From an uncultured Lachnospiraceae bacterium (GTDB lineage Bacteria; Bacillota; Clostridia; Lachnospirales; Lachnospiraceae), in NCBI GenBank assembly GCA_947174665.1, contig CAMWJV010000024.1, positions 1 to 33,403 of the forward strand: DNA of 33,403 nucleotides, written 5' to 3'. Position numbers and translations under genes: made by a program. How positions within the stretch are numbered: the stretch's first letter is position 1; each line of letters begins with the position of its first letter. The notes under the pieces were generated by a model, which made no database searches, had not been told where the DNA came from, and was given only the letters and a program-made list of their open reading frames with translations. Positions 14,073 through 32,377 of this stretch are shown piece after piece.

Positions 14073-14645
14073 TCAAACCGGCAGATTCAGCAGCCCAAGG
14101 TGCTCCAGCAGTATTTTCAGTCCCATGAGGATAAGGATGACACCGCCGAAAATCTCTGCCCTGGCCTTGTATTTCAGACCGAATACATTTCCGATTTTCA
14201 CACCGATAACGGACAGGAAAAAGGTGATGACACCGATGAAGGATACGGCAGGGACGATGCTGACCTGCAGGAATGCGTAGGTGATGCCGACGGCAAGGGC
14301 GTCGATGCTTGTGGCTACGGCGAGCAGGAGCATGGTCTTCACATCCACGGAGTCATTTGCCTTTTCCTCTTCTTTGGACAGCGCCTCTTTTATCATGCTG
14401 ATGCCGATAAGTGCCAGCAGTACAAAGGCAATCCAGTGATCGATAGTTGTGACGTAACGCTCAAAACGTGTGCCCAAAACAAAGCCGATTGTGGGCATCA
14501 GCGCCTGAAAGCCTCCGAACCAGAGACCGATGATGAGTGCCTTTTTCCAGGAAAGCTTTTTCATGGCGAGGCCCTTGCAGACGGAAACGGCAAAGGCATC
14601 CATGGACAATCCCACAGCAGTGATAAACAGTGTAAGTAAGCTCAT
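14073..14645 (-). CDS. mntP: MntP-family manganese efflux pump
   Basis: A 190-residue membrane protein of the MntP (YebN) family, which exports Mn2+. Six hydrophobic segments are visible in two triplets. The conserved aspartate-containing motif appears in each half: [14 protein letters not shown] near residues 12-25 and [15 protein letters not shown] in the second half; [12 protein letters not shown] is also characteristic. I start it at the ATG at 14643-14645 ([16 protein letters not shown]), 30 bases after the stop of the araC-type gene. A longer frame reaches back to 14795 but overlaps that gene and does not resemble the family. The ribosome-binding site is weak (AAAGGT). No manganese riboswitch is visible in the short upstream gap, so control may lie before the araC-type gene. 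Confidence 0.92.
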
Positions 14646-14674
14646 TATGTATAACCGTACCTTTCTGACGTATG

Positions 14675-15586
14675 CTACTGTGAAACCAGAGACTGGACAG
14701 TAGCTATTTTTGTGCTCTTTCGGAATGTGGAAGGAGCCTGGTGCATAAATTTGTTGAAAGCTCTGTTGAATTGGGAAAAGCTGGAAAACCCGCACTGAAA
14801 GGCAATGTCAGCGATGGAGTTATCCGTGGACAGAAGCAGGGTCTGAGCGTTTCTCACCCGGGTCAGCTGCACATAATCCGTCAGAGTAAAGCCGGTGATC
14901 CGCTTAAACTGATGAGACAGATAGCAGCTGCTGATAAAAAATTCCCGCGAGATGGAATCCAGCGAAATATTTTCTGTAAAGTGGCCGTGTATGTATGCGG
15001 TAATGCTGTAGACCTTGTTGGTGATATTGTCAAAGTCAGCATGGTTGGAATAGACGTTTTTATCTCTGTACAGGTAGATCAGACTTAAAAATTCAAGGAA
15101 TTTGTTGTGGATAAACAGTTCCTTCAGTTCGTTTGAACTCTGTGAAAGATAGTAAATATCATTCAGTTTTTCCAGCACCGCCTTTTTATAAGGCTCTTCA
15201 AAACGGTAGATGGGAACGGGTTCCTCAAAAATGCTGTAAATATATTTCATATAGCCTTCAAGAGCGGAAACCATAGGAGGTATGGAAAACTGAATGATCA
15301 GACGCTTGTTTGGCGCCCCTTCCGGATAAACGGTCTTGTGAAGCAGGGAGGGCCGCAGCGCCACAATGTCACAGCACCGCATGTCATACCAGACACCGTC
15401 GATTAAGTGGCCTGCACTTTCGTCCAGAAAGACACAGATTTCATAAAACTGGTGAAAATGCTGGAATTCCATGTTGATGGAATAAGAGCGCTCGTCATAG
15501 TCGAAGTCATAATACAGACTGCTTTCGGGACGCCCGATTTCTATCCTGTATTTCTGGACGTAAATTAATGTATTGTCAACCAGCAT
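14675..15586 (-). CDS. AraC-family transcriptional regulator with cupin-like sensor domain
   Basis: A 303-residue regulator. The N-terminal half (about 40-130) looks like the AraC cupin arm: [21 protein letters not shown], then a metal- or sugar-binding style [12 protein letters not shown]. The C-terminal 100 residues carry two helix-turn-helix units, [21 protein letters not shown] and the signature [20 protein letters not shown]. The ATG at 15584-15586 has CAGGAGG upstream and gives the usual family length. A longer open frame to 15850 runs through a palindromic repeat and is not used. It is transcribed away from hypB and towards mntP. Its target may be the nearby GH105 gene or the divergent metal cluster; the sequence does not decide. 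Confidence 0.9.
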
Positions 15587-15606
15587 GGCATTTCCTCCTG
15601 TAATGA

Positions 15607-15756
15607 ATTGTAACTGTTCAGAGCCAGGCAAATTCGTCTGAAATGTGCGATGAATGCTTGTATTCAATCGCACATTTTCGGAAGAATTTATTTGGCGAGA
15701 GCCAAACACCGAGGAAACACGTAGTGTTTTCGAGGTTGGCTCTGAACAGTTACAAT
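15607..15756. repeat. Cloverleaf-like palindromic element between the araC-type gene and hypB
   Basis: The outer arms are a perfect 20-bp inverted repeat (15607-15626 with 15737-15756; core TGTAACTGTTCAGAGCCA). Inside, AAATGTGCGAT (15641-15651) pairs with ATCGCACATTT (15667-15677) and the stem extends both ways. A second inner stem pairs GGAAACAC with GTGTTTTC (within about 15710-15735). TTGGCTCT on the right can pair either with the outer arm or with AGAGCCAA near 15696, so two alternative folds are possible. It contains no convincing ORF. It overlaps the 5' leader of the araC-type gene. Confidence 0.72.
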
Positions 15757-15825
15757 AAATTATATATGACAGCAGGAGAAAAAGCAATACATGCCTCGCC
15801 GCAAGGGCGAAAGTAACAGACGGTC

Positions 15826-15848
15826 GACAGAATTTTGTCAAATCTGTC
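15826..15848. promoter_or_regulatory. Possible operator upstream of hypB
   Basis: GACAGA (15826-15831) and TCTGTC (15843-15848) form an interrupted dyad with an 11-base spacer, followed by TTTACA and AT-rich sequence before the hypB ribosome-binding site. It is a candidate regulator site for the metal cluster. No clear -35/-10 pair with good spacing was found here. Confidence 0.3.
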
Positions 15849-15904
15849 AATTTACAAGAAAAGAAATATATAAGAAAATAGATATATGGACGGAGGTTAA
15901 AGAT

Positions 15905-16576
15905 ATGGACGGCAATGTACGGGTGATTGAAGTAAAGAGAAGTATTTTTGAGAATAACGATAAGGATGCTGCAAGACTGCGGGAGGAGTTGAAGGAAAAG
16001 AAAGTTTTTCTACTGAATCTGATGTCTTCTCCGGGTTCCGGAAAAACAACTACTCTGCTGGCGCTGGCCCGTGCGCTGGAGGGGAAGATCAAGATGGGCG
16101 TGATGGAGGCAGATATCGATTCTGCGGTGGATGCGGAGAAGATGCTGGCAGCAGGCATAAAGTCCATTCAGATCCATACGGGTGGTATGTGTCATCTGGA
16201 TGCGGATATGACCAGGCAGGGATTATACGAGTTCGGTCTGGAGGATGCAGAGCTGATCGTGCTGGAAAATGTGGGAAATCTGGTATGCCCGGCGGAATTT
16301 GATACCGGCGCGGTGAAAAATATGACAATCCTCTCTGTGCCGGAGGGGGATGACAAGCCGCTCAAATATCCTCTGATGTATGAAAAATGCGATTTGCTGG
16401 TTGTGAACAAGATGGATGTGCTGCCCTATTTTGATTTTGACAGGGAGAAGGTAGCGGAGTACGCAAAGCGCCGTAATCCGAACATAGAAATTCTTTACAT
16501 CTCAGCGAAGACGGGAGAGGGAATCGAAGCGCTGGCGGACTGGATTGTGAGGCAGGCGAGAGCCTGGATGGAGTAA
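15905..16576 (+). CDS. hypB: HypB, nickel-insertion GTPase
   Basis: HypB is a GTPase that works with HypA to insert Ni2+, classically into [NiFe]-hydrogenase. The protein has 223 residues from the ATG at 15905, which follows GGAGG; a longer frame from 15791 adds 38 residues without family similarity. Motifs: Walker A PGSGKTT starting at residue 43, DADID-type switch (EADIDSAVD), the metal-binding Cys-His pair C96-H97 in GGMCHLDADM with C128 in NVGNLVCPAEFD, G4 NKMD, and SAKTGEG. C96, H97 and C128 line up with the nickel/zinc site of archaeal HypB. There is no histidine-rich N-terminus. It heads a cluster that ends with hypA but holds no hydrogenase gene, so the nickel client is probably another enzyme of the cluster. 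Confidence 0.93.
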   Translation: MDGNVRVIEVKRSIFENNDKDAARLREELKEKKVFLLNLMSSPGSGKTTTLLALARALEGKIKMGVMEADIDSAVDAEKMLAAGIKSIQIHTGGMCHLDADMTRQGLYEFGLEDAELIVLENVGNLVCPAEFDTGAVKNMTILSVPEGDDKPLKYPLMYEKCDLLVVNKMDVLPYFDFDREKVAEYAKRRNPNIEILYISAKTGEGIEALADWIVRQARAWME

Positions 16577-16603
16577 GGGAGAAGTTTACCGGAAAGGGAG
16601 GGA

Positions 16604-17398
16604 GTGAAATCCTTGGAACAGCAAAAGACAAAGATTCTGGCGGTGGCAGGCAAAGGCGGTGTTGGAAAGACATCCATAGCGGCAACGATCGTACGGCTTC
16701 TGGCGGAAACCTGTCCGAATAAACGGATTCTGGCTATTGACGCAGACCCTGCCGTGGGGCTGTCCACCGCGCTGGGAATTGAGGTACAGACCACGGTGGA
16801 TGACATACGTAAAGCGGTGGTTTCGGCGGCGGAGGATGGAGACACCAAAAGCGCTATTGAACTGCTGGGTGAGGCCAGATACCGTATTTATGATGCGCTT
16901 ACGGAGCTGGAAGGGTTCAGTTTCATCGCCATCGGCCGCCCCGAATCTGCAGGCTGTTATTGCAAGATCAATTCTTATCTCAAGGAAGTGATCAGTATTT
17001 TGTCGGAGAATTTTGACTATGTGGTCATCGATGGGGAAGCCGGTATTGAACAGATCAACAGGCGGGTCATGGAGAAGGTTACGCATTTGCTGTTGATCAC
17101 GGATTCCAGCAGAAAAGGGACACAGGTAATCCGGACCATCAGGAAGGTGGCGGATGAGCTGGTCATGTATGAACAAATTGGAGTCATTGCTAACCGCCTG
17201 CCCTCTCCGGAGGTGAAAGCCTTTCTGGATACAGGGGAACTTCCCGTGCTGGCATATATTCCTTCGGATGCTTCTCTGGCGGAGTTTGACCTGAAGGGGG
17301 AGAATGTCTTCTATCTTTCGGAGGATGCGGCTATTGTACAGGGGACAAGAGAGGCTTTGAAGAACATCGGGATACTGTCGCAAGGGCATGTTATGTAG
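16604..17398 (+). CDS. CooC-like nickel-related ATPase (MinD/ArsA superfamily)
   Basis: A 264-residue deviant-Walker ATPase. KGGVGKT (residues 17-23), DADPAVGLSTALG (46-58) and VVIDGEAGIEQINRR are typical of CooC, the ATPase that helps load nickel into carbon monoxide dehydrogenase. The C-x-C pair C118-Y-C120 in GRPESAGCYC sits where CooC has the two cysteines that bind metal across the dimer. The start is a GTG at 16604, preceded by GGGAGGGA; no closer ATG fits. It follows hypB by 27 bases. The window holds no CODH catalytic subunit, which suggests that it serves a different nickel or Fe-S protein, such as the dehydratase-like or ACS-like proteins downstream. Other members of the family, such as AcsF, are also possible names. 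Confidence 0.85.
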   Translation: MKSLEQQKTKILAVAGKGGVGKTSIAATIVRLLAETCPNKRILAIDADPAVGLSTALGIEVQTTVDDIRKAVVSAAEDGDTKSAIELLGEARYRIYDALTELEGFSFIAIGRPESAGCYCKINSYLKEVISILSENFDYVVIDGEAGIEQINRRVMEKVTHLLLITDSSRKGTQVIRTIRKVADELVMYEQIGVIANRLPSPEVKAFLDTGELPVLAYIPSDASLAEFDLKGENVFYLSEDAAIVQGTREALKNIGILSQGHVM

Positions 17399-17415
17399 AA
17401 GATCAGGAGGTTAAA

Positions 17416-18606
17416 GTGAAGGATTTAAAGCATCTGTATTATTTTGAAAAGCTTCTGGAGGATGCGAACAATGAATTAGTCAGGCAGGCTCAGGCGGATG
17501 GTCGAAAATGTATCGCCACAGTCTGCGAAAATATTCCGGAGCCGCTTTTGAATCTGCCGGGAACGTTTTCCGTGCGTCTGCGTGCCCCTCGCACAGGATC
17601 CATGGATATGGCTACCTATTATATGACCAGTTTTCTGTGCGAATACACAAGGGCACTTCTGGAGCGCGCCATGGAGGGCGGCTATCAGTTTACGGACTGC
17701 CTGATCACTCCGGACGGCTGTTCCATGCTCAACCGCTGCGTGGAGAACATGGAGCTGCTGAAAACAGTGGATAAGAAGGACTATTTTTATGAATATATGG
17801 AGATTCCCATGAAAGCAGATGACAACGGGCTGAATCTCTATACGCTGCAGTGCAGGAATCATATCCTGAAGCCACTGCAGGAGAAATTCGGAATTGATAT
17901 TTCGGATGGAGCGATTCGCAGAGCCGTGGAAGAGCATAACCGAGTCTGTGAATTGATCCGGCAGATCGGAGCGTACCGCAGGGAGGAAAATCCCAGGATT
18001 ACCGGATATGAATTTCATATTCTGACCATGGCCACCTATGTTGCGCCAAAAGATCTGCTCATAGGCAGACTGGAGGAGACACTGAAGGAGCTGGAGACCA
18101 GAAAACCCGACGAGAAGAATCCCTGTCGGATCAGGGTAGTGCTGGTGGGCTCCGAGGTGGACGATGTGGACCTGGTGAGGCTGATCGAGGAATGCGGAGC
18201 ATATGTGTGCGCCGACCGTTTCTGCTACGGTTCTTTTCCCGGAAGGGACAGGATAGAGCTTACGGATGAGGAGGATGCGCTGACGCAGATCTGCCGTCAG
18301 TATATGTACAGGGGGCAGTGTGCCAGATATATGAATCAGGACAAGATACAGGAGAGGCGCAGCTACATAGACAGACTGGCGAAGGAATACCACGCCGACG
18401 GCATTATCTATCAGCAGATGAAATTCTGTGACCCATGGGCTTATGAGCGTATGGTGGGAACCCATGTCCTGCGGGAGGATTATCATTATCCGGTGCTGTC
18501 TGTGGACAGACCTTACGCAGTGGGAAATTCCGGCCAGCTGCGTACCCGTGTGCAGGCCTTCGTGGAAAGCGTTGAACTGAAAAAAATCCAGGGAGGTGGC
18601 AGATAG
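17416..18606 (+). CDS. 2-hydroxyacyl-CoA dehydratase-like subunit (HgdB/BcrC superfamily), divergent
   Basis: A 396-residue protein of the superfamily that includes 2-hydroxyacyl-CoA dehydratases, benzoyl-CoA reductase subunits and double-cubane cluster proteins. Family-like patterns: a cysteine before a proline at C37 (VCENIPEPLL), LITPDGCSMLNRC with C102 and C108, VGSEVDDVDLVRLIEECGA, then an aromatic-rich FCYGSF. DGIIYQQMKFCDPW follows with C338. C37, C102 and C338 are candidate Fe-S ligands. It differs clearly from the usual enzymes (no CGxxP-type motif), so a normal dehydratase role is doubtful. Starts at GTG with AGGAGG upstream. The stop overlaps the next gene by one base, so the two are probably made together as a heterodimer. 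Confidence 0.72.
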   Translation: MKDLKHLYYFEKLLEDANNELVRQAQADGRKCIATVCENIPEPLLNLPGTFSVRLRAPRTGSMDMATYYMTSFLCEYTRALLERAMEGGYQFTDCLITPDGCSMLNRCVENMELLKTVDKKDYFYEYMEIPMKADDNGLNLYTLQCRNHILKPLQEKFGIDISDGAIRRAVEEHNRVCELIRQIGAYRREENPRITGYEFHILTMATYVAPKDLLIGRLEETLKELETRKPDEKNPCRIRVVLVGSEVDDVDLVRLIEECGAYVCADRFCYGSFPGRDRIELTDEEDALTQICRQYMYRGQCARYMNQDKIQERRSYIDRLAKEYHADGIIYQQMKFCDPWAYERMVGTHVLREDYHYPVLSVDRPYAVGNSGQLRTRVQAFVESVELKKIQGGGR

Positions 18607-20156
18607 TGGGAAAAGAATGGGGAAGTGAGAGTCTGGGAAGCTTTTATACAGACGGGAAGGTGAGAAGACGTCGGGAATGGCGGGGCGTAAAGGATACCTT
18701 TTATGATTATGCCAGATGGGTTCACATCATGGGAATCCTGACTAAATTCATTGTGAAGCCGCGGAATATCAAAGCATTTTTCCGCTATCGGTGGATGGCG
18801 AATTACCTTGCCGCGCCCATGATGGTGGATCGCCATACTCAGGGGCTCAGGGGTCCTCAGCTTCGCATCGCCCATACGGAATTTGATCTGGTCATGGAGG
18901 ATGTGGCGAAGCTTCTGGATAATCTGTTCAAGGGGGACAGGAGGATCGGAAACAACAGGAAGTTCTCCAAAAAGGTGGTGCTGGTGGACGAGAACGAGAT
19001 GACGGCGGTGATGATGGGCTTTCCCACGCTTAAATGTCTCAGCCGGGAGACTCCCTCCGTCTATGTCTCCGTGCTTTTGAACCAGTATGCGGCCTGTCAC
19101 TACATCGACGTGGCGCAGGAATTCGGTTTGCCGGGAGATGTCTGCCCTATGCCGGAGGCGGAGGCGGGTGTGTCCATTGAGGACGATTTTCCGGTGCTGG
19201 GTGCCTGTGCAATCCAGTGCAATACCACCTGCGACGGCTCTTTGATGGGGAATGGAATCATCTCCAAGCGTCTGGAGCTGGAGGACGGGATTCCCTGTTT
19301 CCAGCTCGCAGCGCCTCTCAGACACAGAGAGGAGGATGTGCAGGAGTATGCAGCCCAGGAAATCCGCAATGCCATTGCGTTTATCGAAAAGCATACGGGA
19401 GAGAAGTGGGATTGGGATTATTATTTCGAGTGCGCAAAGCGGGTAAATGAGTCCACCCGCCACCGGATGGAGTGGCTGGAGATGAATAAGACCGATTACC
19501 CCCAGGTTTTCGGGTCTAATCTGGCTCTTTATACGGAGACCAATTATATGGCAATCTGCGGCAAGATGCAGGAGTTTGTGGATGCCGACAGAAAGATCTC
19601 CGCCATTGCGGAAAAGGCTTATAAAAATAAGACAAAAGTGGTGAAGGAATACCGCCACAGGGCCATCATCTGGGGAGTGCAGTCCCATTTCTATTTCGAC
19701 TTTCTGATATGGCTGCAGAACTGCTGGGGAATCCTGCCCCTTACCGATATGCTTTCCATGGTGTCTACCAAAGTTCTTTCGGAGGATGATAAGGAACAGG
19801 CCATTTACGATATGGCGTGGCTGACGGAAAACATGATCATGCGTAACCGGACGCATGGAGGCTATAAGGTGCTGCTGGACGAACTCTGGGAGTTCTGTGA
19901 GGAGTTCAGGGCGGATACGGTAATTCTCTGGGAGCATATCAGCTGCAAGGCGCTGGACGGCATGCACGGACAGTTTGAGGAAAAGGCCAGGGAGAAGGGG
20001 ATTCATCTGATCTGGGTGCAGCATGACCTTTTTGACCCGCGGGTGATATCCAGACAGGAGATCAGAGATCAGGTGAACCGTTACATGAGGACGGTATTCC
20101 GTGAAGAGCCAATTGATCCTACGCTGGAAGTGATCTCGGATGAGCATTCCTGGTAA
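18606..20156 (+). CDS. Second 2-hydroxyacyl-CoA dehydratase-like subunit, divergent
   Basis: A 516-residue protein starting at a GTG that overlaps the preceding stop, with GGGAGG upstream. It resembles the same dehydratase/reductase superfamily only loosely: a VVLVDENEMTAVMMGFPTL region, a C-terminal half with VILWEHISCKAL and GIHLIWVQHDLFD, and many cysteines. A compact cluster, C201-x3-C205-x3-C209 (ACAIQCNTTCDG), together with C144, C164 and C180, could bind an Fe-S or mixed-metal centre. It is longer than normal HgdA/HgdB subunits (about 380-480), with a basic N-terminal extension of around 110 residues. It is probably the partner of the gene before it; the reaction is unknown. A chain of hairpins follows. 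Confidence 0.6.
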   Translation: MGKEWGSESLGSFYTDGKVRRRREWRGVKDTFYDYARWVHIMGILTKFIVKPRNIKAFFRYRWMANYLAAPMMVDRHTQGLRGPQLRIAHTEFDLVMEDVAKLLDNLFKGDRRIGNNRKFSKKVVLVDENEMTAVMMGFPTLKCLSRETPSVYVSVLLNQYAACHYIDVAQEFGLPGDVCPMPEAEAGVSIEDDFPVLGACAIQCNTTCDGSLMGNGIISKRLELEDGIPCFQLAAPLRHREEDVQEYAAQEIRNAIAFIEKHTGEKWDWDYYFECAKRVNESTRHRMEWLEMNKTDYPQVFGSNLALYTETNYMAICGKMQEFVDADRKISAIAEKAYKNKTKVVKEYRHRAIIWGVQSHFYFDFLIWLQNCWGILPLTDMLSMVSTKVLSEDDKEQAIYDMAWLTENMIMRNRTHGGYKVLLDELWEFCEEFRADTVILWEHISCKALDGMHGQFEEKAREKGIHLIWVQHDLFDPRVISRQEIRDQVNRYMRTVFREEPIDPTLEVISDEHSW

Positions 20157-20157
20157 A

Positions 20158-20243
20158 AGTGTGCAAAGAATTTCTAAGGCGCCAAAAGGCGCCGCCTAAG
20201 AAATTCTAAGTCTCACACTGAAAAACGCAAAGGCAGCGTTTTT
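20158..20243 (+). terminator. Repeat hairpin and terminator-like hairpin after the dehydratase-like pair
   Basis: A large stem begins at AGTGTG (20158-20163), pairing with CACACT (20214-20219); inside it AGAATTTCT pairs with AGAAATTCT and GGCGCC with GGCGCC. It is followed by AAAAACGC (20221-20228) pairing with GCGTTTTT (20236-20243), a stem ending in a T tract. The second stem could end or attenuate transcription between the two halves of the metal cluster. Confidence 0.6.
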
Positions 20244-20278
20244 CTCACGGATTGTTTGTGCCACCGGGGGCGGCATGG

Positions 20279-20355
20279 TACCTCGCTAAGTGATTTCACG
20301 CTCTGAAAAGCAGAGCTTCTTCGCCCGGAAGAATCCGCAGGCGGATTCTTCCGGG
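20279..20355. repeat. Palindromic repeats before the activator gene
   Basis: TCGCTAAGTG (20283-20292) equals 14037-14046, and ACCTCGCTAAG (20280-20290) is the reverse complement of 12625-12635. Two hairpins follow: GCTCTG (20300-20305) with CAGAGC (20311-20316), and a perfect 15-bp stem CCCGGAAGAATCCGC (20324-20338) with its complement at 20341-20355 around a 2-base loop. No T tract follows. Confidence 0.65.
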
Positions 20356-20444
20356 ATTGCATCAATTCACAGGGAAAATGCAGGTAACAGAGGAGTTCCC
20401 AGCGGAAGAACATAACGAAACGAATTGAGAGATAGGAGAGGAAT

Positions 20445-21233
20445 ATGAAATATTATGGTGGATGTGATTCGGGGAGTACATACACGAAATGTGTGATTCT
20501 CGATGAAAACGGAAAGATGGTGGCGGATGTCACGATCCGCAGCCGGATCAATTCCGTGCTGAGCGCGGAGGATGCTTTAAAGCAGGCTGTTGAACAGGTT
20601 CCCGGGCTGAACAGTCCGGAGGAGCTGGATTATCTTGTGGGTACGGGCTATGGACGCAACAAGGTGCCCTTTGCGGATGAGAATATTTCGGAGATCAGCT
20701 GCCATGCCATGGGTGTTCATGTGGCGGATCCAAAGGTCAAGGCGATCATTGATATCGGGGGCCAGGATGTGAAGGGTATTGCCGTGGATACGGACGGGAC
20801 GGTACTGAATTTTGCCATGAACGATAAATGCGCTGCAGGAACCGGGCGGTTCTTCGAGGCCATGGCAAGAGCCTTTGAGATGGATCTGACAGAATTTTCA
20901 GGATTGTCCTTAAAGGCGAAGAATGTCATCCCTATTACCTCCCAATGTACCGTGTTCGCGGAGTCGGAGGTGATCTCGCTGGTGGGAGAGGGAAAGCCAA
21001 TGGAGGAGATTGCCGCAGGTATTGAGCTTTCTGTGGCGAAAAGATGCTTTGTTATGTCCAAGAAGGCGGGAGCCGTGGACAGCATTGCCCTTACCGGTGG
21101 ATGTGCGAAGAACGAAGGGCTGAAAGCGGCCATTGAGAAGGTTCTGAATCTGAAGGTTATCGAACTGCCCATCGATCCCCAGCTGATGGGAGCGCTGGGG
21201 GCAGCGGAATTTGCAAGGCAGAAGGCGAAGTGA
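20445..21233 (+). CDS. HgdC-type ATP-dependent activator (acyl-CoA dehydratase activase, archerase)
   Basis: A 262-residue ASKHA-fold ATPase that binds one [4Fe-4S] cluster at its homodimer interface. It uses ATP hydrolysis to push an electron at very low potential into a dehydratase- or reductase-type partner. Motifs: CDSGSTYTK at 7-15 (ATP-binding phosphate loop), VGTGYGR, EISCHAMG, IDIGGQDVK, then the two cluster ligands C129 (NDKCAAGTGRF) and C168 (SQCTVFAESEV), and ALTGGCAKNEG. The two cysteines match the positions known for Acidaminococcus HgdC. The length is normal. Its expected partners are the two dehydratase-like proteins upstream. The ATG follows TAGGAGAGG. Confidence 0.93.
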   Translation: MKYYGGCDSGSTYTKCVILDENGKMVADVTIRSRINSVLSAEDALKQAVEQVPGLNSPEELDYLVGTGYGRNKVPFADENISEISCHAMGVHVADPKVKAIIDIGGQDVKGIAVDTDGTVLNFAMNDKCAAGTGRFFEAMARAFEMDLTEFSGLSLKAKNVIPITSQCTVFAESEVISLVGEGKPMEEIAAGIELSVAKRCFVMSKKAGAVDSIALTGGCAKNEGLKAAIEKVLNLKVIELPIDPQLMGALGAAEFARQKAK

Positions 21234-21279
21234 CTTTTGATTGCCGGAAAGCGGCACAGAAGTGAACGGAGGATATGAT

Positions 21280-21447
21280 ATGGCGTTATTTTTAAAGATA
21301 GTGTTGATTATAATGATTGTGGCAGTCAGTCTGTTCGTGTTAACTTTTCTTGTATATTTTTTCAATCTGGACATGAAGCTCATGGCGAAGCTGGCACCGC
21401 TGTTTGAGAAGCATTACGATAAAGTAAAAAGAGATAAACATTTGTAA
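21280..21447 (+). CDS. Small single-pass membrane protein (55 residues)
   Basis: A 55-residue protein with one hydrophobic helix of about 25 residues near the N-terminus (LIIMIVAVSLFVLTFLVYFF) and a basic, probably cytoplasmic tail (KHYDKVKRDKH). It has a strong ribosome-binding site (GGAGG at 21269-21273) and lies between the activator gene and an ACS-like gene that starts 4 bases after its stop. No family was recognised. The context suggests that it anchors or regulates the metal complex, or that its translation drives that of the next gene, which has no clear ribosome-binding site. Frame and RBS support it as real. Confidence 0.7.
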   Translation: MALFLKIVLIIMIVAVSLFVLTFLVYFFNLDMKLMAKLAPLFEKHYDKVKRDKHL

Positions 21448-21451
21448 GCAT

Positions 21452-22210
21452 ATGAAACTGTATGACGAGATAATCTGCAAAATGCAGGATATTCTGGATG
21501 CGGCGGACAGCCGCATACTGCCTGTGGGCGGGACTGCGTGGCCCCAGGTGTCTGACCGGAGCATGATTTTGCGAAGCGATATGGCGTATGAACTGGGGGG
21601 CGAGGGACTTCCGGCCATTGGCTGTACTGTTATCACTGCGGATGATAAGCTGGTTTCCGCGGATGGCATTACTTTATTGGGAGAGGATCTTCCGCAGATC
21701 AGGAAGGATGTACCTTATGCCCGTGTTGCGCTGGTGCGCGTCCGTGAGGAAATGCTGGGGGAAGGACAGGCATTGTACAGCGCCGTCCGCGCCCTGGAGT
21801 ATACCAGATACCACTTTTACCCGGAGGGCTTTATGATGCGGGTATCAACATCCGGGCAGAAAGAGTGTGTCCGGATTGGGAAAGAGGCTCTGAGAAAAGG
21901 GCTGGACTTTACAAAGGCAGGAAATGGGATGCTTTCTGCTTTCCACAGGAATACTGCCGTTGAGGCGGTTCATATTTATTATGTGACACTTCGCGAGTTT
22001 GATTATAATGCTTTGGAAGCATATGCAAAAGAGGCGGAGAGGATCACAAAGACAATTGACCATATACTGAAGAATGTGGTCATGGACTGCAATGCCTGCA
22101 GTCTGCAGAAAGTCTGCGATGAGGTGGAAGGACTGCGGGAACTGCACTTTAAGGGGAATATGACTATGACAGTGGGGGGATCAGTCCGGATTCCAATAAA
22201 CAAAAAGTAA
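21452..22210 (+). CDS. Truncated acetyl-CoA synthase-like protein (AcsB/CdhC family region)
   Basis: A 252-residue protein with a run of features in the same order as the middle of acetyl-CoA synthase: AYELGG at 45-50, DGITLLGEDL at 71-80, a conserved R-rich linker, GFMMRVS at 126-132 (compare W-M-R-V/I-S in ACS), a FHRN-AVE-VHIYYVT stretch at 164-179, and a cysteine group C213-x2-C216-x5-C222. In full ACS this region leads to the A cluster. Here the protein ends soon after the first cysteines, and the Cys-Gly-Cys nickel site is absent. I place it by pattern memory, not alignment. There is no ribosome-binding site of note, so it is probably coupled to the small gene before it. Next to HypA, HypB and CooC homologues, a nickel or CO link is plausible. 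Confidence 0.55.
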   Translation: MKLYDEIICKMQDILDAADSRILPVGGTAWPQVSDRSMILRSDMAYELGGEGLPAIGCTVITADDKLVSADGITLLGEDLPQIRKDVPYARVALVRVREEMLGEGQALYSAVRALEYTRYHFYPEGFMMRVSTSGQKECVRIGKEALRKGLDFTKAGNGMLSAFHRNTAVEAVHIYYVTLREFDYNALEAYAKEAERITKTIDHILKNVVMDCNACSLQKVCDEVEGLRELHFKGNMTMTVGGSVRIPINKK

Positions 22211-22247
22211 CAGCAATAACATATAACAAACAACAAGGAGGAAAACA

Positions 22248-25058
22248 ATGGCATTTGATATGGAGCAGTACAACAGATGGCCGGCGAATCACAAGCACGA
22301 CAAGGAGCCCAGCAAGAAGATCATCGCTCTGGGCAAGAAGATCACGGACGTGGCGGCTCACATGATCGGTGGTGTGAAGGTGGAGGATCCGGAGTACTGG
22401 GGACTTGCGGAGATCATCACAGAGGAGATGGCGGAGGTAGGCCTCGCCATGAAGAAAAGGACGCCCTACACCTTCCCTGAAATGTGCAAATTGTGCAAAA
22501 TCGACAAGGCCGGGGAGGAGAAATTTCAGAAGCTTCTGGACGAGATGAGTTACATAGGCCTGCTGGAATATGATTACGGTTATCATTACGACCACAACGG
22601 GCGCACTCATGAGCAGACGGAGCGCAGATATGTTCTTCCTATGTTTGTGCCGGGCTCTGCGGAGCTGTTCAATATGGAGGAGCTTCCAGACAGAAGCAAT
22701 CCCAGGCTTCGGGATCATCCGGATGTGGCTTCCTTCTTTGAGCGCATGACCTTTATTCCCCTGGCGGGCGTTACTCAGATGGTGCCTCCCGGAGGCGCCG
22801 GTATTGGTATGCATGTGATCCCGGTGGAAAAAGCAATTTCCATGGAGAATCAGTCTGTGGATCTGGAGCATATCTCCTACTGGCTGAAAAAATACGAGGG
22901 CCATATCGGCGTAGGCCGCTGCTCCTGCCGTGCTTCCCGCAAGGTGCTGGGCGAGGGTGTTGCGGATGATGATTTCGGCTGGTGCATCGGCGTGGGTGAT
23001 TTTGCGGATTACTGCCGTGAGACAGGCAAGGGTCATGACATCACCTATGAAGAGGCCATGGCAATCCTGCAGAGAGCGGAGGAGAACGGCTTCGTACACC
23101 AGATTACCAATATCGACGGCGAGAACAAGATTTTCGGTATCTGTAACTGTAACGTAAATATCTGTAATGCCCTGCGCACCTCCCAGCTTTTCAATACACC
23201 CAACATGTCCCGTTCCGCCTATGTTGCCCATGTGGACAAGGAAAAGTGTGTGGCCTGCGGGCGCTGCGTAGAGTACTGCCCGGCAGGCGCTACCAGGCTG
23301 GGACAGAAGCTGTGCACCAAGGACGGCAAAGAAGTACAGTATCCCAAGCAGGAACTTCCTGATGCGACCAAATGGGGTAAGGACAAATGGGATCCGGATT
23401 ACCGGGATAACAACCGTATCAACAGCCACAAGACAGGTACTGCACCTTGTAAGACAGCTTGCCCGGCGCATATTGCCGTACAGGGTTATTTGAAAAAAGC
23501 ATCTCAGGGGAAATATAAGGAAGCCCTTGCGCTGATCAAAAAGCAGAATCCTTTCCCGGCTGTCTGCGGACGCATCTGCAACAGGCGCTGCGAGGATGCA
23601 TGTACCAGAGGAACCATCGACGAGGCAGTGGCCATCGATGCCGTGAAGAAATTTATTGCGGAGCAGGATCTGAAGGCGGAGACCCGCTACATTCCTCCTG
23701 TGGTGATTCCTGCCAGCATCCATATGGATCATTTCGATGATAAGATTGCCATCATCGGAGGCGGGCCCGCAGGTTTGAGCGCGGCATTCTATCTGGCGGA
23801 GAGAGGCTATCGTCCTACTGTCTTTGAGAAGAATGAAAAGCCGGGCGGAATGCTGCAGTACGGAATTCCCTCCTATAAGTTGGAGAAGAATGTTATAGAA
23901 GCTGAGATCGACATTATGCGGGAAATGGGCGTGGAGATCAAGACCGGCGTTGAGGTTGGGAAAGATATCACACTGAAGCAGCTGCGTGAACAGGGATATA
24001 AGGCATTTTATATTGCCATCGGCTGCAGCGCAGGTCGCAGACCCGGCGTGGCGGGAGACGAGGCGGAAGGCACCATGACGGCCATTGAATATCTGCATGA
24101 GGCAAATACAGGCAATACCTCCTACACCGGAAAAGTGGTGGTAGTAGGCGGCGGAAATGTGGCAATCGATGCCTCCAGAGTAAGCGCAAGAAGCGGGGCA
24201 TCTGAAGTGACCATGCTCTGTCTGGAATCAGAAAAGGAGATGCCTGCGTCTGCAGAGGAAGTCAGAGAGGCTTTGGAAGACGGTGTAACCATCAAAAACG
24301 GCTGGGGACCTAAGGAGGTTCTGACCGAGGACGGAAAGGTGAAGGGAATTGTATTCAAGAAATGTCTCTCCGTCTTCAATGCAGAGGGCAGATTTGCCCC
24401 CAGTTACGACGAGAATGATACCATTACCATAGAGTGTGACCGTATTATCTTTGCCATCGGCCAGAAGACCGTATGGGGTGATCTGCTTAAGGATGAGAAG
24501 GTGGAGTTCAACGGACCTGCCATTGTGGCGGATAAGCTTACCTTCCAGACAGGCCAGCCGGATATCTTCGTGGGCGGAGATGTATACACCGGACCGAAGT
24601 TCGCCATTGACGCCATTGCAGCAGGGCATTATGCATCGGAGTCCCTGCATCGCTATGTACATAATGGACACATGACCATCGGGCGCAATAAATGGGAGTT
24701 CAACGAACTGGACAAGGACAATATCCGGGTGGAAAGCTATGACAATTCTTCCCGCCAGATCGAAGGGCTGGATTCCTCCATACCGGAGAAATCTTTCCGG
24801 GATGCCCATCTGACCCTGACCGAGGAGCAGGTGAAAAAGGAGACCGCCCGCTGCTTAGGCTGCGGCGCTACCGTTGTGGACGAGAACAAATGCATCGGCT
24901 GCGGCGTGTGTACCACAAAGTGCGAATTTGACGCTATCACTCTGCATCGTGACAGGCCGGAGTGCACCACCATGGTGACAGCAGAAGACAAATTCAAGGC
25001 GATCATCCCTTATCAGCTGAAGCGCGCGGTGAAGATCGTGACTCACAAGAAGAGCTGA
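22248..25058 (+). CDS. Multi-domain Fe-S/FAD/NAD(P) oxidoreductase (GltD-like) with ferredoxin domains
   Basis: A 936-residue cytoplasmic electron-transfer flavoprotein. Order of parts: an N-terminal region (1-320) with cysteines C80/C83, C225/C227 and C246; a ferredoxin-like motif C334-x2-C337-x2-C340-x3-C344; a GltD-type Fe-S region starting C401 (CKTACP, then CGRICNRRCEDAC); FAD-binding IIGGGPAGLSAA near 500-511 with GGMLQYGIP; NAD(P)-binding VVVGGGNVAIDASR near 630; IFVGGDVYTGP; CLGCG at 869; and a final ferredoxin motif C882-x2-C885-x2-C888-x3-C892. It most likely passes electrons from NAD(P)H through Fe-S clusters to the activator or the dehydratase-like pair. The fused N-terminal part goes well beyond simple GltD. 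Start ATG after AAGGAGGA. Confidence 0.88.
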   Translation: MAFDMEQYNRWPANHKHDKEPSKKIIALGKKITDVAAHMIGGVKVEDPEYWGLAEIITEEMAEVGLAMKKRTPYTFPEMCKLCKIDKAGEEKFQKLLDEMSYIGLLEYDYGYHYDHNGRTHEQTERRYVLPMFVPGSAELFNMEELPDRSNPRLRDHPDVASFFERMTFIPLAGVTQMVPPGGAGIGMHVIPVEKAISMENQSVDLEHISYWLKKYEGHIGVGRCSCRASRKVLGEGVADDDFGWCIGVGDFADYCRETGKGHDITYEEAMAILQRAEENGFVHQITNIDGENKIFGICNCNVNICNALRTSQLFNTPNMSRSAYVAHVDKEKCVACGRCVEYCPAGATRLGQKLCTKDGKEVQYPKQELPDATKWGKDKWDPDYRDNNRINSHKTGTAPCKTACPAHIAVQGYLKKASQGKYKEALALIKKQNPFPAVCGRICNRRCEDACTRGTIDEAVAIDAVKKFIAEQDLKAETRYIPPVVIPASIHMDHFDDKIAIIGGGPAGLSAAFYLAERGYRPTVFEKNEKPGGMLQYGIPSYKLEKNVIEAEIDIMREMGVEIKTGVEVGKDITLKQLREQGYKAFYIAIGCSAGRRPGVAGDEAEGTMTAIEYLHEANTGNTSYTGKVVVVGGGNVAIDASRVSARSGASEVTMLCLESEKEMPASAEEVREALEDGVTIKNGWGPKEVLTEDGKVKGIVFKKCLSVFNAEGRFAPSYDENDTITIECDRIIFAIGQKTVWGDLLKDEKVEFNGPAIVADKLTFQTGQPDIFVGGDVYTGPKFAIDAIAAGHYASESLHRYVHNGHMTIGRNKWEFNELDKDNIRVESYDNSSRQIEGLDSSIPEKSFRDAHLTLTEEQVKKETARCLGCGATVVDENKCIGCGVCTTKCEFDAITLHRDRPECTTMVTAEDKFKAIIPYQLKRAVKIVTHKKS

Positions 25059-25077
25059 ACAGAAAGAGGAAAGTGAC

Positions 25078-25422
25078 ATGCATGAGCTTGGAGTAGTGTT
25101 CTATGTAGTGAAGGATGTAAAGCAGGTGGCGGAGGAAAACGCCGTGGAGAAAATAGCGTCCGTGACACTGCAGATCGGGGAAGTGTCGGGTATCGTGCAC
25201 GAGTATCTGATTGACTGCTGGAACTGGGCCAGAAAAAAGGAAGCTGTCATGGAAGAGGCTGAACTTTTGATAGAGCAGATCGACGCGGTTTCCTTCTGCG
25301 AGGAATGCGGGAAGGAGTACTCTACGGTGCAGTATGCGAAAATCTGCCCTCACTGCGGCAGCGAGCATACTTATCTGGCGCGGGGGAATGAATTTCTGAT
25401 CAAGGAGATTGCCGTGTATTAG
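25078..25422 (+). CDS. hypA: HypA/HybF nickel metallochaperone
   Basis: A 114-residue nickel chaperone that hands nickel on with HypB. It begins MHELGVV, with the essential His2 and Glu3 of the nickel site, and carries the zinc ribbon C74-x2-C77 and C90-x2-C93 (FCEECGKEY, KICPHCGSE). Length is normal. The ATG at 25078 has a GAGGAAAG ribosome-binding site and sits 19 bases after the flavoprotein gene. It closes the cluster that opens with hypB, about 8.5 kb upstream. hypC, hypD, hypE, hypF and hydrogenase subunits are absent from the window. A bidirectional terminator follows. Confidence 0.93.
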   Translation: MHELGVVFYVVKDVKQVAEENAVEKIASVTLQIGEVSGIVHEYLIDCWNWARKKEAVMEEAELLIEQIDAVSFCEECGKEYSTVQYAKICPHCGSEHTYLARGNEFLIKEIAVY

Positions 25423-25521: not shown

Positions 25522-26550
25522 TTAGTCAGCCGGGGATTGTGTCTTTGCGTTCTCGTCATAGGTAAAGCCGCGCAGATTCAGTTCCTTTGCCCTGTGGCAT
25601 GCGCAGAGGCGTCCGTCAGGCATCTCCGCGAGCTCCGGCGAGTCTGTCTTGCATTTATCGATGCAGTAACGGCATCTCTCATGGAAATAACAGCCGCTTG
25701 GCGGGTTGGCAGGGTTAGGAATTTCACCCTTCAAAGGGATACGATCCATCTGAATGGTGGGATCCGCCACAGGCACCGCGGAGAGCAATGCTTCCGTATA
25801 GGGGTGCATGGGCTTTTCAAACAGGTCTTCCGCCGGCGCAAATTCCACCATCCTGCCCAGATACATGACGCCCACCTTGTCTGAAATATGCTCCACCACC
25901 GAAAGGTCATGGCTGATAAACAGATAGGTAAGCTTCAGTTCCTTCTGCAGATCCCGCAGCAGGTTGATGACCTGCGCCTGGATGGATACGTCAAGGGCGG
26001 AAACGGCCTCATCACAGACGATGATCTGAGGCTCGATCACCAGTGCCCTGGCAATGCCGATACGCTGGCGCTGCCCTCCGGAAAAGGCGTGGGGATAACG
26101 CATCAGGTACATGGGGTTTAAGCCCACCTTCTCCGCCATCGCCTTTGCCCGCTGATCCATCTCGTCTTTGGACATTTTGGGAAAGTTGGCCTTTAACGGC
26201 TCCTTGATAATGTCGAGAACAGTCATTCTCGGGTCAAGAGAGGAGTAAGGATCCTGGAAGATCATCTGGATTTCCTTACGGATCTCTTTCATTTTCTTTT
26301 TGTCTACTTTCAGGAAGTCCAGTTCCTCACCGCTCTTTGTGCGATAGAAAACTTCGCCCTCGGAAGCGTTATAGGCGCGGACGATACAGCGGCCCAGCGT
26401 TGTCTTGCCGCAGCCGGATTCGCCTACGATACCGATGGTCTCACCGGGTTTTACGCTGAAGCTGACATCAGTTACAGCCTTTACCGTAACACCCTTGGAT
26501 GTAAAACGTTTATGCAGTCCCTTGACTTCCATAATATTGTCTTTGTTCAT
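25522..26550 (-). CDS. oppF: Opp-type ABC transporter ATP-binding protein (OppF-like)
   Basis: A 342-residue ATPase of the oligopeptide/nickel family. Motifs: Walker [11 protein letters not shown] loop in [11 protein letters not shown], signature SGGQRQR, Walker [13 protein letters not shown] and switch histidine in ISHDLSVV. It has the family's C-terminal extension with a cysteine cluster ([17 protein letters not shown]). The ATG overlaps the TGA of the preceding oppD-like gene (ATGA, 26547-26550). It is the last gene of a minus-strand run that also encodes a binding protein, two permeases and a second ATPase. The substrate may be an oligosaccharide or an oligopeptide; see the binding-protein entry. 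Confidence 0.93.
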
Positions 26551-27608
26551 TCTTTGCCAGCCTCCTCTTTGTTCAGGATAGCCTCCACTTTTGCCCGCTG
26601 GGCCTTGCAGGCCTCGTGAGGGCAGTTAAAACAGGCAATTTTGTGTCCGGGGGCAATTTCGGTCAGCTCCGGCTCCGCTCTGTTGCAGAGTCCTTCGATA
26701 CGAACGTCGCAGCGGTCATAGAACCCGCAGGCCTTCGGCAGGTTCATGGCAAGAGGAACCGTGCCCTCGATGGAGAACAGTCGCTCCTCCTTCTTGGAGC
26801 CGATCTTATGGACGGAGCCGATCAGACCTCTTGTATAGGGATGCTGGGGATTTGCGTAAATCTCCGATGCATCCGCACTCTCCACAATTTTGCCGAGATA
26901 CATAACCGCCACTCTGTCGCACATTTTTGCAACCACGCCAAGGTCATGGGTGATGAAGAGGATTGCCATGTTAAAGTCCTTTTGGAGTTCCTTCATCAGC
27001 TCCAGAATCTGTGCCTGAATGGTCACGTCCAGAGCCGTGGTGGGCTCGTCGGCAATCAGCATTTTCGGATTACACACCAGTGCCATGGCAATCAGGGCAC
27101 GCTGCAGCATACCGCCGGAAAACTCATGGGGATACTGGTTGTAACGCTTTTCCACATTGGCGATACCAACCTTGCGCATCACTTCCATGGATATTTCTTT
27201 GGATTTCTTTTTGTCCTTTGTGATATGAAGCCGTGTGGCTTCATTAATCTGGTTGCCGATGGTATACATCGGAGAAAAGGCAACCATGGGCTCCTGGAAG
27301 ATCATGGAGATTTCCTTGCCCCGGATGGAGCGGATTTCCTGACCCTTCTGGTCCAGTGAAAGGAGATCCACCTTGCCTAAGCCCTCCGAATCAAACATAA
27401 TCTGTCCGCTGGGCACGCATTTTTTGTCATTGATGCCGAGGATTGCTTTGCAGGTCAGGGATTTGCCACAGCCTGACTCACCTACCAGACCCAGTGTTTC
27501 GCCCTTTTTCATCTCAAAGTTTACGCCCCGGACGGCTGTCAGAAGTCCCTCCGTCATATGAATGTCAACATGGAGGTCTTTGACTTCAAGAATATTATCT
27601 TTGTTCAT
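26547..27608 (-). CDS. oppD: Opp-type ABC transporter ATP-binding protein (OppD-like)
   Basis: A 353-residue ATPase, partner of the OppF-like subunit. Motifs: Walker [10 protein letters not shown] loop in [18 protein letters not shown] signature, Walker [13 protein letters not shown], switch histidine in ITHDLGVV. A cysteine-bearing C-terminal tail ([25 protein letters not shown]) could bind Fe-S, as proposed for some dipeptide transporter ATPases. The ATG at 27606-27608 follows GAGAGGAAAA; a longer frame upstream to 27644 is not supported by similarity. A small hairpin (GCCGC/GCGGC, 27624-27637) lies in the 51-base gap to the permease. Confidence 0.93.
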
Positions 27609-27659
27609 TTTTCCTCTCATTCCGCCGCGCAAGCGGCATTTCAATATTTGGAAGCAGGT

Positions 27660-28787
27660 TTACTTGTAAGGGTCTGCTGCATCACGTATTCCGTCGCCGA
27701 GGAAGTTAAATGCAAGCACTGCGATCGTCACGAAGATGATCGGTATCAGCTTGTGAGGATTACTTGCAACGTCAGTGACGGAGCTTGCCTCCTGGAGCAG
27801 TACGCCCCAGCTGGTTGCGGGAGACTTAATGCCCAGTCCTAAATAGGACATGGACGTCTCACCCACGATGGAGCCCGGAATGCCGAGAGTGATTGAAACG
27901 ATAAGATAACTCATAAAGCCGGGAACCAGATGCTTCCATATGATCTTCCATGTGGATACGCCGGAGAGCCTTGCCGCCATAACATAATCCTCATTCTTGA
28001 GGGACAGGAACTTTCCGCGCACCACCCGGGCCATGCCGGTCCAGTTGATAAAGGAGAGAATAATCGTTATGTACAGATACATCTTTACGGTGGAGATTCC
28101 GGGAGGTATCGCCGCGGAAAGAGCCATCCAGAGAGGAATCTGAGGAACGGCGCCGATCACCTCAATGATTCTTTGGATCACAATATCTACTGCTCCGCCA
28201 AAGTATCCTGAAATGGAACCGATAGTGACGCCCAGGAAGAAGCTGATGATAGCGCTGGCAAACGGAATGGTCAGGGAGATTCTGCTTCCGAGAAGAATCC
28301 GGGAGAAAATATCCCGTCCCAGGGAGTCAGTTCCGAAGAGCATAACCTTTGCGCCGGTTCCGCCGCCCGATCCTCCGTTTACGCCGAAGAGATGGATGTC
28401 ACAGGGAATCAGTCCCAGAATTTTGTATTCCGAGCCGTGGACGAAAAATTTAATTTTGTAATACTCAGAGGTATCCTCTGTGATCTTCACGGAAAAATCC
28501 GTCCTGTCAATGGTCTTTTCAAGCTTGTAAACAAAGGGGCCTATAAATTCTCCCTCATGAGTCCAGTGGATTTTGGATGGGGCACTGTCCTTGTACAGGG
28601 CATCAAATTCGTCCAGCGAATAGGGTGCCAGAAAATCCGCGAACAGAGCTCCCAGATATAAGATCAGGAGAATGAGCATGGAAAGCTTTGCCAGCTTGTG
28701 CTTTTTAAGCTTTCTGCCCATCAGTGTCCACTGGGAGGCAAGATAATAATCTTCGTTTGTTTTCTGATTCTGCTTCTTTTTCCACAT
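27660..28787 (-). CDS. oppC: Opp-type ABC transporter permease (OppC-like)
   Basis: A 375-residue membrane subunit. An initial membrane helix (about 33-53) is followed by a roughly 100-residue extracellular region (EFIGPFVYKLEKT, then IKFFVHG) leading to the family's HLFGV...LFGTDSLGRDIFSRIL segment. Five more helices follow, with the coupling-loop pattern ARVVRGKFLSLKNEDYVMAARLSG. The C-terminal LAFNFLGDGIRDAADPY is typical. The long insert before the HLFGV segment is common in transporters of this type that carry sugars. The start codon overlaps the oppB stop by one base (TAATG). Confidence 0.92.
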   Translation of the reverse strand: MWKKKQNQKTNEDYYLASQWTLMGRKLKKHKLAKLSMLILLILYLGALFADFLAPYSLDEFDALYKDSAPSKIHWTHEGEFIGPFVYKLEKTIDRTDFSVKITEDTSEYYKIKFFVHGSEYKILGLIPCDIHLFGVNGGSGGGTGAKVMLFGTDSLGRDIFSRILLGSRISLTIPFASAIISFFLGVTIGSISGYFGGAVDIVIQRIIEVIGAVPQIPLWMALSAAIPPGISTVKMYLYITIILSFINWTGMARVVRGKFLSLKNEDYVMAARLSGVSTWKIIWKHLVPGFMSYLIVSITLGIPGSIVGETSMSYLGLGIKSPATSWGVLLQEASSVTDVASNPHKLIPIIFVTIAVLAFNFLGDGIRDAADPYK

Positions 28788-29890: not shown

Positions 29891-29916
29891 TAGAAACTCC
29901 CTTTCTTAAATAGAAA

Positions 29917-30008
29917 CCGGAGGCGGGGAACCGGGTTCCCCGCCTCCGGAGGTCAGTCTTGCTGCTGAAGAATGCTTTGCATTCTTCTAATTGCCATTTA
30001 TGGCAATT
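29917..30008 (-). repeat. Three consecutive hairpins between the oppA-like and oppB-like genes
   Basis: Perfect stems: CCGGAGGCGGGGAA (29917-29930) with its complement at 29936-29949; GAAGAATGC (29967-29975) with GCATTCTTC (29979-29987), loop TTT; AATTGCCAT (29989-29997) with ATGGCAATT (30000-30008). The last ends on the binding-protein stop codon. Read on the minus strand, the GC-rich stem is followed by TTTCTATTT. They probably stabilise the binding-protein mRNA and let only part of transcription through, giving excess binding protein over permease. Confidence 0.7.
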
Positions 30009-32080: not shown

Positions 32081-32150
32081 AAATAAATCCTCCTTAAAAA
32101 ATTTTGGAAACGTTGATTTAAATAATGCCAATGTGTTCCCTTGTGACAGT

Positions 32151-32179
32151 AGTATAGCAACTGCGAATTCAAAAAGCAA
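32151..32179 (-). promoter_or_regulatory. oppA: Sigma-A type promoter of the opp operon
   Basis: On the minus strand, TTGCTT (32174-32179) and TATACT (32151-32156) with a 17-base spacer, giving a leader of about 65 bases before the ATG at 32080. The 370-base gap 32081-32450 also holds a TATAAT at 32244-32249 on the plus strand without a good -35, plus a hairpin at 32378; otherwise it is AT-rich with no ORF. Confidence 0.65.
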
Positions 32180-32377
32180 CACTTTTATGTGAAATTTGCG
32201 TTTTTAATTTTTTGGTATTGTAAAAAGTGCATAAAATCAGAGTTATAATTTGGTAAATACTATGCAAAGGACAAATAAACGGCTGATTAGGAAAGCAAAA
32301 AATGCAATATTTATATAGGAAAAAGCAAGAGATGCGTGGAAATTACAGCCCGCGTCTGGTAATCTTTTTATTGTAAG

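Follow-up and report, generated by a model that had tools for sequence, protein, structure and literature searches.

The nine co-oriented genes at positions 15905-25422 of the window (the whole 33,403-nucleotide stretch analyzed here, G000:C24, from an uncultured Lachnospiraceae bacterium) are two adjacent units rather than one (Table 1). The first unit (16604-22210) encodes a CooC-type ATPase, two HGD-D subunits, an activase, a 55-aa membrane peptide and AcsL, a 252-aa protein resembling acetyl-CoA synthase (ACS). This six-gene module is apparently an undescribed gene set of some gut and rumen bacteria; full-text literature searches returned no published account of it. The second unit consists of hypB and isrA-hypA. 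We put at roughly 50% the probability that the module is an ATP-driven, possibly nickel-containing reductase that shares a pathway with an ene-reductase. An earlier sequence-only reading of this DNA had described nine co-oriented genes in this interval, and all nine open reading frames are indeed on the + strand at the positions first claimed. The hgdA1 and hgdB2 frames overlap by one base, sequences resembling ribosome-binding sites were seen by eye upstream of most of the nine frames, acsL excepted, and the two units look co-transcribed.

Table 1. The nine genes of the two units, in order along the window
Gene	Product or feature	Position	Strand	Basis
hypB	HypB-type nickel GTPase, unit 2, isrA/hypA partner	15905..16576	+	TIGR00073, 238.5 bits (cut-off 121.2)
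cooC-like	P-loop ATPase, Cys-x-Cys metal motif C118/C120, unit 1	16604..17398	+	Invariant C118/C120, CooC identity, tree
hgdA1	HGD-D/BzdN-like subunit, six double-cubane cysteines	17416..18606	+	PF06050, 289.9 bits (cut-off 28.4); BzdN ligand alignment
hgdB2	Divergent HGD-D subunit, 516 aa, [4Fe-4S] cysteines C180, C209, C447	18606..20156	+	
act	ATP-dependent acyl-CoA dehydratase/benzoyl-CoA reductase-type activase (HgdC/BcrAD)	20445..21233	+	TIGR00241, 227.4 bits (cut-off 125.4)
tm	55-aa protein with a hydrophobic stretch at its N-terminus and a conserved tail	21280..21447	+	Recurrence at other loci
acsL	Standalone ACS middle-domain protein, C-terminal C213-x2-C216-x5-C222...H232	21452..22210	+	
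isrA-like	936-aa NAD(P)/FAD/multi-[4Fe-4S] protein, Cys6 site	22248..25058	+	Cys conservation, IsrA layout, GltD-type domains
hypA	HypA-type nickel chaperone	25078..25422	+	PF01155, 106 bits (cut-off 28.9)

An AcsL alignment scanned against a collection of one genome per species (84,980 species) confirmed 165 AcsL relatives, and the 85 loci studied are the best 80 of these 165 together with five from other genomes. Sequence of 5.8 kb or more ahead of acsL was available at 61 loci; cooC, hgdA1, hgdB2, act and tm were all present in 49 of these, and their order was identical in all 49. Given the 165 relatives and this fixed order, the gene set goes beyond chance, and the conservation of gene order across relatives that the sequence-only reading had proposed to look for holds for the six-gene module. 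In 5 of the 61 loci the HGD pair alone is missing, leaving cooC-act-tm-acsL, and HgdB2 is found elsewhere in those genomes; in another 7 one or more other genes are missing within 6.5 kb, L072 having its cooC slightly further upstream. The order differs in G462 (acsL-cooC-hgdA1-hgdB2-act-tm-isrA-hypA), and a second copy in the window genome (G000:C34) reads hgdA1-hgdB2-acsL with no adjoining cooC, act or tm.

Going by record titles, most carriers of AcsL belong to the Lachnospiraceae, among them Pseudobutyrivibrio and Butyrivibrio fibrisolvens 16/4; others are Eubacterium sp. 14-2, Anaerovoracaceae and two spirochaetes. AcsL is uncommon: of 291 genomes sampled from the class, a single-sequence search found it in 5. 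AcsL-type matches occurred in 20 of 220 genomes of the Lachnospiraceae, the window's family, to which its nearest named relatives such as Acetatifactor sp. (L016) belong; the match in G521, a 726-aa frame, we took as a full ACS and set aside. The remaining 19 genomes are the same 19 that have HgdB2, a coincidence with a chance of ~1e-27 for two random sets of 19 among 220 genomes (uncorrected for kinship). HgdB2 was also present in 15 of 15 genomes tested, six of them without hgdB2 at the acsL locus. AcsL and the HGD pair are an obligate pairing.

Both members of this pair contain an HGD-D domain, HgdB2 scoring 126.1 bits against PF06050. The cysteine ligands of the double-cubane [8Fe-9S] cluster of the benzoyl-CoA reductase (BCR) BzdN have been named (PMC11971306), and C37/75/102/270/302/338 of HgdA1 align with these ligands (C36/73/100/263/293/327), with the full set of six found in 62 of 65 HgdA1 sequences. 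In HgdB2, C180 and C447 align with the BzdO aqua-[4Fe-4S] ligands C95 and C380, and C209 aligns with BzdO C129, one column off the ligand C128, and matches the cysteine of the TTCDG motif of the double-cubane cluster protein (DCCP); all three are kept in 65 of 66 sequences. The aligned residues show a predicted double-cubane [8Fe-9S] ligand set in HgdA1 and a predicted catalytic-type [4Fe-4S] set in HgdB2. C129 and C168 of the activase are conserved in 78 of 78 sequences. An ATP-coupled low-potential reductase, as put forward from the sequence alone, is supported.

AcsL matches CdhC (PF03598, 26.6 bits, cut-off 24) and has the fold of the ACS middle domain. It had been described as an ACS-like fragment; the likeness to ACS stands and the fragment does not, as 1094 AcsL relatives were found among candidates of similar length (at least 120 of those listed span 216-267 aa), and AcsL looks like an intact family rather than a broken gene. 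Cys-Gly-Cys is the motif of the A-cluster distal nickel (Ni_d). AcsL has no Cys-Gly-Cys and ends before the SCGCFECICG segment of all five full ACS compared. Its C213/C216/C222 fall on ACS cysteines in a global profile alignment, the local alignment and the structure match ending earlier, and the tail that bears these cysteines is poorly modeled (pLDDT about 50). We take AcsL, on its sequence, to be an ACS middle domain followed by a predicted, truncated A-cluster-like CxxC...C motif. The small tm frame found no Pfam match, has the conserved tail residues P40, K44, H45, Y46 and D47, and is seen again at other loci, either between act and acsL or following hgdB2.

The CooC-like protein matches a general P-loop family (PF01656, 56.4 bits, over the cut-off) and lies far below the cut-offs of the MinD/ArsA equivalog models, yet it has the CooC motifs: C118 and C120 are invariant in 65 of 65 sequences, and G16, K17, G18, G19, G21 and K22 of a deviant Walker A are among the nearly invariant columns. 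CODH/ACS clusters from other genomes hold two CooC types, 'GCYC' and 'GCVC', to which the module CooC is 32-34% and 27-29% identical, respectively. The GCVC-type gene sits between CooS and ACS. As the GCYC gene adjoins ACS in L146 and lies beyond CooS on the other side in L150 and L151, GCYC cannot be named the ACS-side type from position alone. In a tree, the 29 module CooCs all cluster together (100/99), and this cluster branches with the GCYC type (100/99), the GCYC group itself being weakly supported (88/47).

These data bear on the possibility that the module is an ordinary CoA-thioester reductase or dehydratase, in which the HGD pair would be BCR- or 2-hydroxyacyl-CoA dehydratase-like, AcsL would be a metal-free or [4Fe-4S] CoA-handling subunit, and CooC would supply zinc or assemble Fe-S clusters. 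The closest folds of the HGD pair (BzdNO, 2-hydroxyisocaproyl-CoA dehydratase and DCCP) and the match of AcsL to the ACS middle domain only, with no Cys-Gly-Cys, agree with such an enzyme, as does CooC-1, whose conserved Cys-x-Cys cysteines can hold either Zn or Ni across a pair of monomers (PMC6006190). However, HgdB2 has a glycine at the position of BzdO His131, and the NCBIfam equivalog cut-offs for these enzymes are missed by far (double_cubane 146 vs 350 bits, bzdN 91.7 vs 453.8, HadC 92.4 vs 700 and HadB 21.3 vs 750). To our knowledge, a CooC-type ATPase with an invariant Cys-x-Cys would also be unusual for BCR or HAD systems, and we consider this explanation rather unlikely.

Three nickel-type factors are present at the locus, as the earlier reading had stated. 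Its further claim that there is no hydrogenase, no CODH catalytic subunit and no complete ACS agrees with family searches of the window genome (82.7% complete), which gave no match to CooS, [NiFe] hydrogenase, LarA or urease and no full-length ACS. Searches of G202, a 100% complete genome with the module and no IsrA at threshold, likewise gave no match to CooS, [NiFe] hydrogenase, LarA or urease. With no match to these four families in either genome, the module is a candidate user of its own CooC. Counted by hand, 30 of 52 carriers hold at least one of the four nickel-enzyme families over the cut-off, and these might be served by CooC or the Hyp proteins. These other families, and the ability of CooC to bind zinc, leave nickel on AcsL plausible only; we infer both the nickel and the substrate of the module.

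Enrichments of 'Ca. Galacturonibacter soehngenii' (Lachnospiraceae) incorporate CO2 into acetate and show CODH activity with no canonical CODH/ACS genes. The same authors name Pseudobutyrivibrio xylanivorans and Butyrivibrio fibrisolvens among the relatives where they did not identify the complex (PMC7000372), and strains of the two carry the AcsL module (L059 and L053, respectively). AcsL with the ATP-driven reductase could then be a non-canonical ACS, substituting for CODH/ACS and either forming acetyl-CoA or handling CO in Lachnospiraceae lacking the canonical genes. We find this very improbable: the module has no corrinoid protein, methyltransferase or CooS, AcsL has no Ni_d site, and a CooS-family match slightly above its cut-off (499.6 bits, cut-off 478) is present in the genome of P. 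xylanivorans (L059, G318).

Turning to the second unit, the 936-aa protein contains GltD-type FAD and NAD(P) domains (PF14691 and PF07992) with flanking [4Fe-4S] motifs, and its Cys6 site (C225, C227, C246, C299, C301 and C306, with two CxC motifs) is kept in 39 of 39 sequences. From these features we assign it to the IsrA (putative isoprene reductase) family. The IsrA family has been published with hypA and hypB neighbors: of 988 IsrA homologues, 73% have hypA and 56% have hypB no more than five genes away, and nickel has been proposed at the Cys6 site (PMC10134865). The gene combination was originally thought to match nothing known, but isrA, hypA and hypB are already a published isoprene-reductase-type set in that work, whose list of IsrA neighbors, in the portion available, mentions no HGD-D, ACS-like or CooC genes. 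H91, H97 and C128 of HypB are kept in 12 of 12 sequences and C96 in 11 of 12, and hypB lies upstream of the module in 11 of 85 loci, some of which are cut short. HypA falls below the cut-off of the TIGR00100 hypA model (73.5 vs 88.1 bits), and its H2 and CxxC pairs (C74/C77 and C90/C93) are kept in 40 of 40 sequences.

At 10 IsrA loci that do not adjoin the module (L125, L135-L143), hypA was present in 9 and hypB in 8, and hypA was present in none of 8 module loci without IsrA (L126, L127, L129-L134). Of 67 loci with 4.5 kb downstream, isrA came next in 35 (32 with hypA) and did not in 32 (4 with hypA). These counts indicate that HypA and HypB are the companions of IsrA, and that CooC belongs to AcsL and the HGD pair. 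The idea of one nine-gene system is therefore not borne out, as neither isrA nor hypA is next to the module in 28 of the 67 loci and 30 of 220 genomes have isrA but no module. Scattering of the genes in neighboring genomes, which the sequence-only reading had named as a point against such a system, is seen in half: the six-gene core is fixed, and isrA and hypA are separable from it.

The two units are nonetheless associated. IsrA was detected in 45 of the 220 Lachnospiraceae genomes, comprising 15 of the 19 that have the module and 30 of the remaining 201 (p ~1e-8, with four candidates per genome scored and kinship uncorrected), and hypA was beside isrA in all 9 inspected of the 30 module-free isrA genomes. 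With four candidates scored, IsrA was not found in 4 of the 19 module genomes, and G202 was also negative in a fuller scan. A quick tree built from 27 IsrA proteins calls for at least three changes in whether isrA adjoins the module, although a count of three could also reflect a single gain with two losses. The IsrA of G462 is 49% identical and sits in a different gene order. IsrA has probably joined the module more than once. A 684-689-aa protein lies downstream of acsL in L013, L127, L129 and L130, and an 803-aa protein upstream of cooC in L131; those of L127, L130 and L131 were scanned and have an old-yellow-enzyme FMN domain, with likeness to BaiCD/bilirubin reductase below cut-offs. Since either IsrA or old-yellow-enzyme-like proteins are found at module loci, two kinds of flavin-type reductase accompany the module.

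By analogy, the HGD pair could instead be a reductive activator that drives a nickel center, on AcsL or at the IsrA Cys6 site, to its active low-valent state. ATP-driven activation of a nickel cofactor through large Fe-S clusters is known for methyl-coenzyme M reductase (MCR; PMC12176620). The retention of cooC and act by acsL in the rearranged loci L041, L054, L064, L132 and L133 would fit such a role, as would the occurrence of module-adjacent IsrA in at least two parts of the IsrA tree. On the other hand, 30 of 45 IsrA genomes have no module and 4 of 19 module genomes no detected IsrA, HgdB2 retains the three catalytic [4Fe-4S] cysteines of BzdO, and AcsL is without the ACS Ni_d ligands. 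We consider an activator unlikely and favor reduction of a metabolite by HgdB2 over a complex that mainly activates a nickel site.

In the pathway that we propose, cooC-hgdA1-hgdB2-act-tm-acsL would encode a membrane-tethered, ATP-driven reductase anchored by the 55-aa peptide. Low-potential electrons would run from the activase through the [8Fe-9S] cluster to the HgdB2 [4Fe-4S] cluster and/or a metal site on AcsL, into which CooC may load nickel as its relatives do for CODH/ACS. The neighboring hypB and isrA-hypA would encode an NAD(P)H:ene-reductase of the IsrA type together with nickel chaperones dedicated to it. The ATP-driven module would carry out a difficult reduction on a substrate that is unsaturated or hydroxylated and may be lipophilic or CoA-bound, and the ene-reductase, IsrA here and an old-yellow-enzyme/BaiCD-like protein in some other lineages, would take the product further, with product or electrons passing to IsrA.

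Several observations run against this proposal: AcsL has no Ni_d motif and a poor tail model, the G000:C34 copy stands without cooC, act and tm, the HGD pair is absent at 5 of 61 loci, no IsrA was detected in 4 of 19 module genomes, other nickel-enzyme families occur in 30 of 52 carriers, and the scores fall short of the equivalog cut-offs for DCCP, BzdN and other BCR/HAD proteins.

More tentatively, the module may represent a new type of nickel enzyme, a nitrogenase/BCR-like ATP-driven double-cubane reductase with AcsL as a third subunit, a minimal ACS-derived Ni-Fe-S protein loaded by a CooC ATPase of its own; in Clostridia of the gut and rumen this enzyme would have been brought in repeatedly as the entry step for ene-reductases. 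If so, the ACS middle domain and an A-cluster-like motif would have found a further use beyond canonical CO metabolism, linked to the enzyme class that uses ATP to obtain very low-potential electrons. Nickel-dependent, ATP-driven reduction would then be testable in the culturable Pseudobutyrivibrio, Butyrivibrio fibrisolvens 16/4 and Eubacterium sp. 14-2. The module offers candidate genes for reductions in its carriers and gives the IsrA family a partner system.

Among known systems, class I BCR BzdNO(PQ) and DCCP:DCCP-R share with the module the HGD-D fold, a BcrAD-type ATP activase, the six [8Fe-9S] cysteines (HgdA1) and the three [4Fe-4S] cysteines (HgdB2). In contrast, identity to BzdNO is low (HgdB2 14% to 8s02_C by structural alignment), His131 has no equivalent, the N-terminus of HgdB2 reaches ~80 residues beyond the part covered by the BzdNO match, and cooC, tm and acsL are three genes extra to those systems. 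Unlike acetyl-CoA synthase (AcsB/CdhC), AcsL has no N-terminal domain and no Ni_d motif, and it is small, with a length of 216-267 aa among at least 120 relatives listed. The module CooC has the KGGVGKT P-loop and invariant Cys-x-Cys of the CooC/AcsF nickel-insertion ATPases, but it is a separate group (100/99) at 32-34% identity, in a window genome (82.7% complete) where CooS and full ACS were not found. We know of no reason to expect MCR in these bacteria. The ATP-driven MCR activation complex likewise sends low-potential electrons through complex Fe-S clusters towards nickel, but with other proteins and sites (McrC, Mmp7, A2, L-cluster-like sites). Finally, the IsrA-like protein has the domain order, the Cys6 site with two CxC motifs and the adjoining hypA/hypB of the IsrA of Acetobacterium wieringae, and differs from it in that it adjoins an ATP-driven module.

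The genome that carries the window holds a second hgdA1-hgdB2-acsL copy, found on another of its contigs without cooC, act or tm adjacent. Further HGD-D pairs were also observed elsewhere: the compared loci L013, L126, L127, L128/L129 and L130 have a second, more divergent pair close to the module. In these loci both pairs appear to be served by one cooC, and act and acsL, where present, likewise appear to be single and common to the two pairs. Some of the second pairs are accompanied by a small membrane peptide of their own.

Coordinates of features in and beyond the window
Feature	Location	Strand or character	Basis
MntP-like efflux-pump protein and AraC-like ORF	window 14073-15850	minus	model score; reading by eye
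hgdB2/act intergenic gap	window 20157-20444	288 bases	
Oligopeptide/dipeptide-type ABC transporter genes	window 25522-32182	minus, convergent	family scan of 3/5 genes
Second hgdA1-hgdB2-acsL copy	G000:C34, L011 8444-11900	divergent	
DUF5692 membrane protein	L136 6045-7100		Pfam match

Within the operon, the gap between hgdB2 and act contains two 15-nt inverted repeats, one of them perfect with a 2-nt loop. Its appearance suggests hairpins within the operon or the insertion of a short repeat element. Immediately upstream of hypB lie the gene for the MntP-like protein (125.3 bits; model cut-off 214) and an adjoining ORF which, by eye, resembles an AraC-type regulator. The downstream transporter set comprises two ATPases, two permeases and a 724-aa binding protein that scored far below the cut-off of the NikA models (58.5 bits against 393), so nickel import is not assigned to it.

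On a Spirochaetaceae contig (L085), an isrA-like gene (49%) adjoins module genes on the opposite strand, possibly another independent association. The DUF5692 protein of L136 adjoins a standalone isrA-hypA-hypB, in agreement with the isrA neighbour reported previously (PMC10134865); ORFs that look similar occur in L139, L140, L141 and L142, the Pfam scan having covered the L136 protein. Finally, two Pseudobutyrivibrio loci (L152, L154) encode a CooS-like protein with a His-rich start, next to ORFs that look ABC transporter-like by eye, and these surroundings resemble the genomic context described for clade B CODH (PMC13056359).
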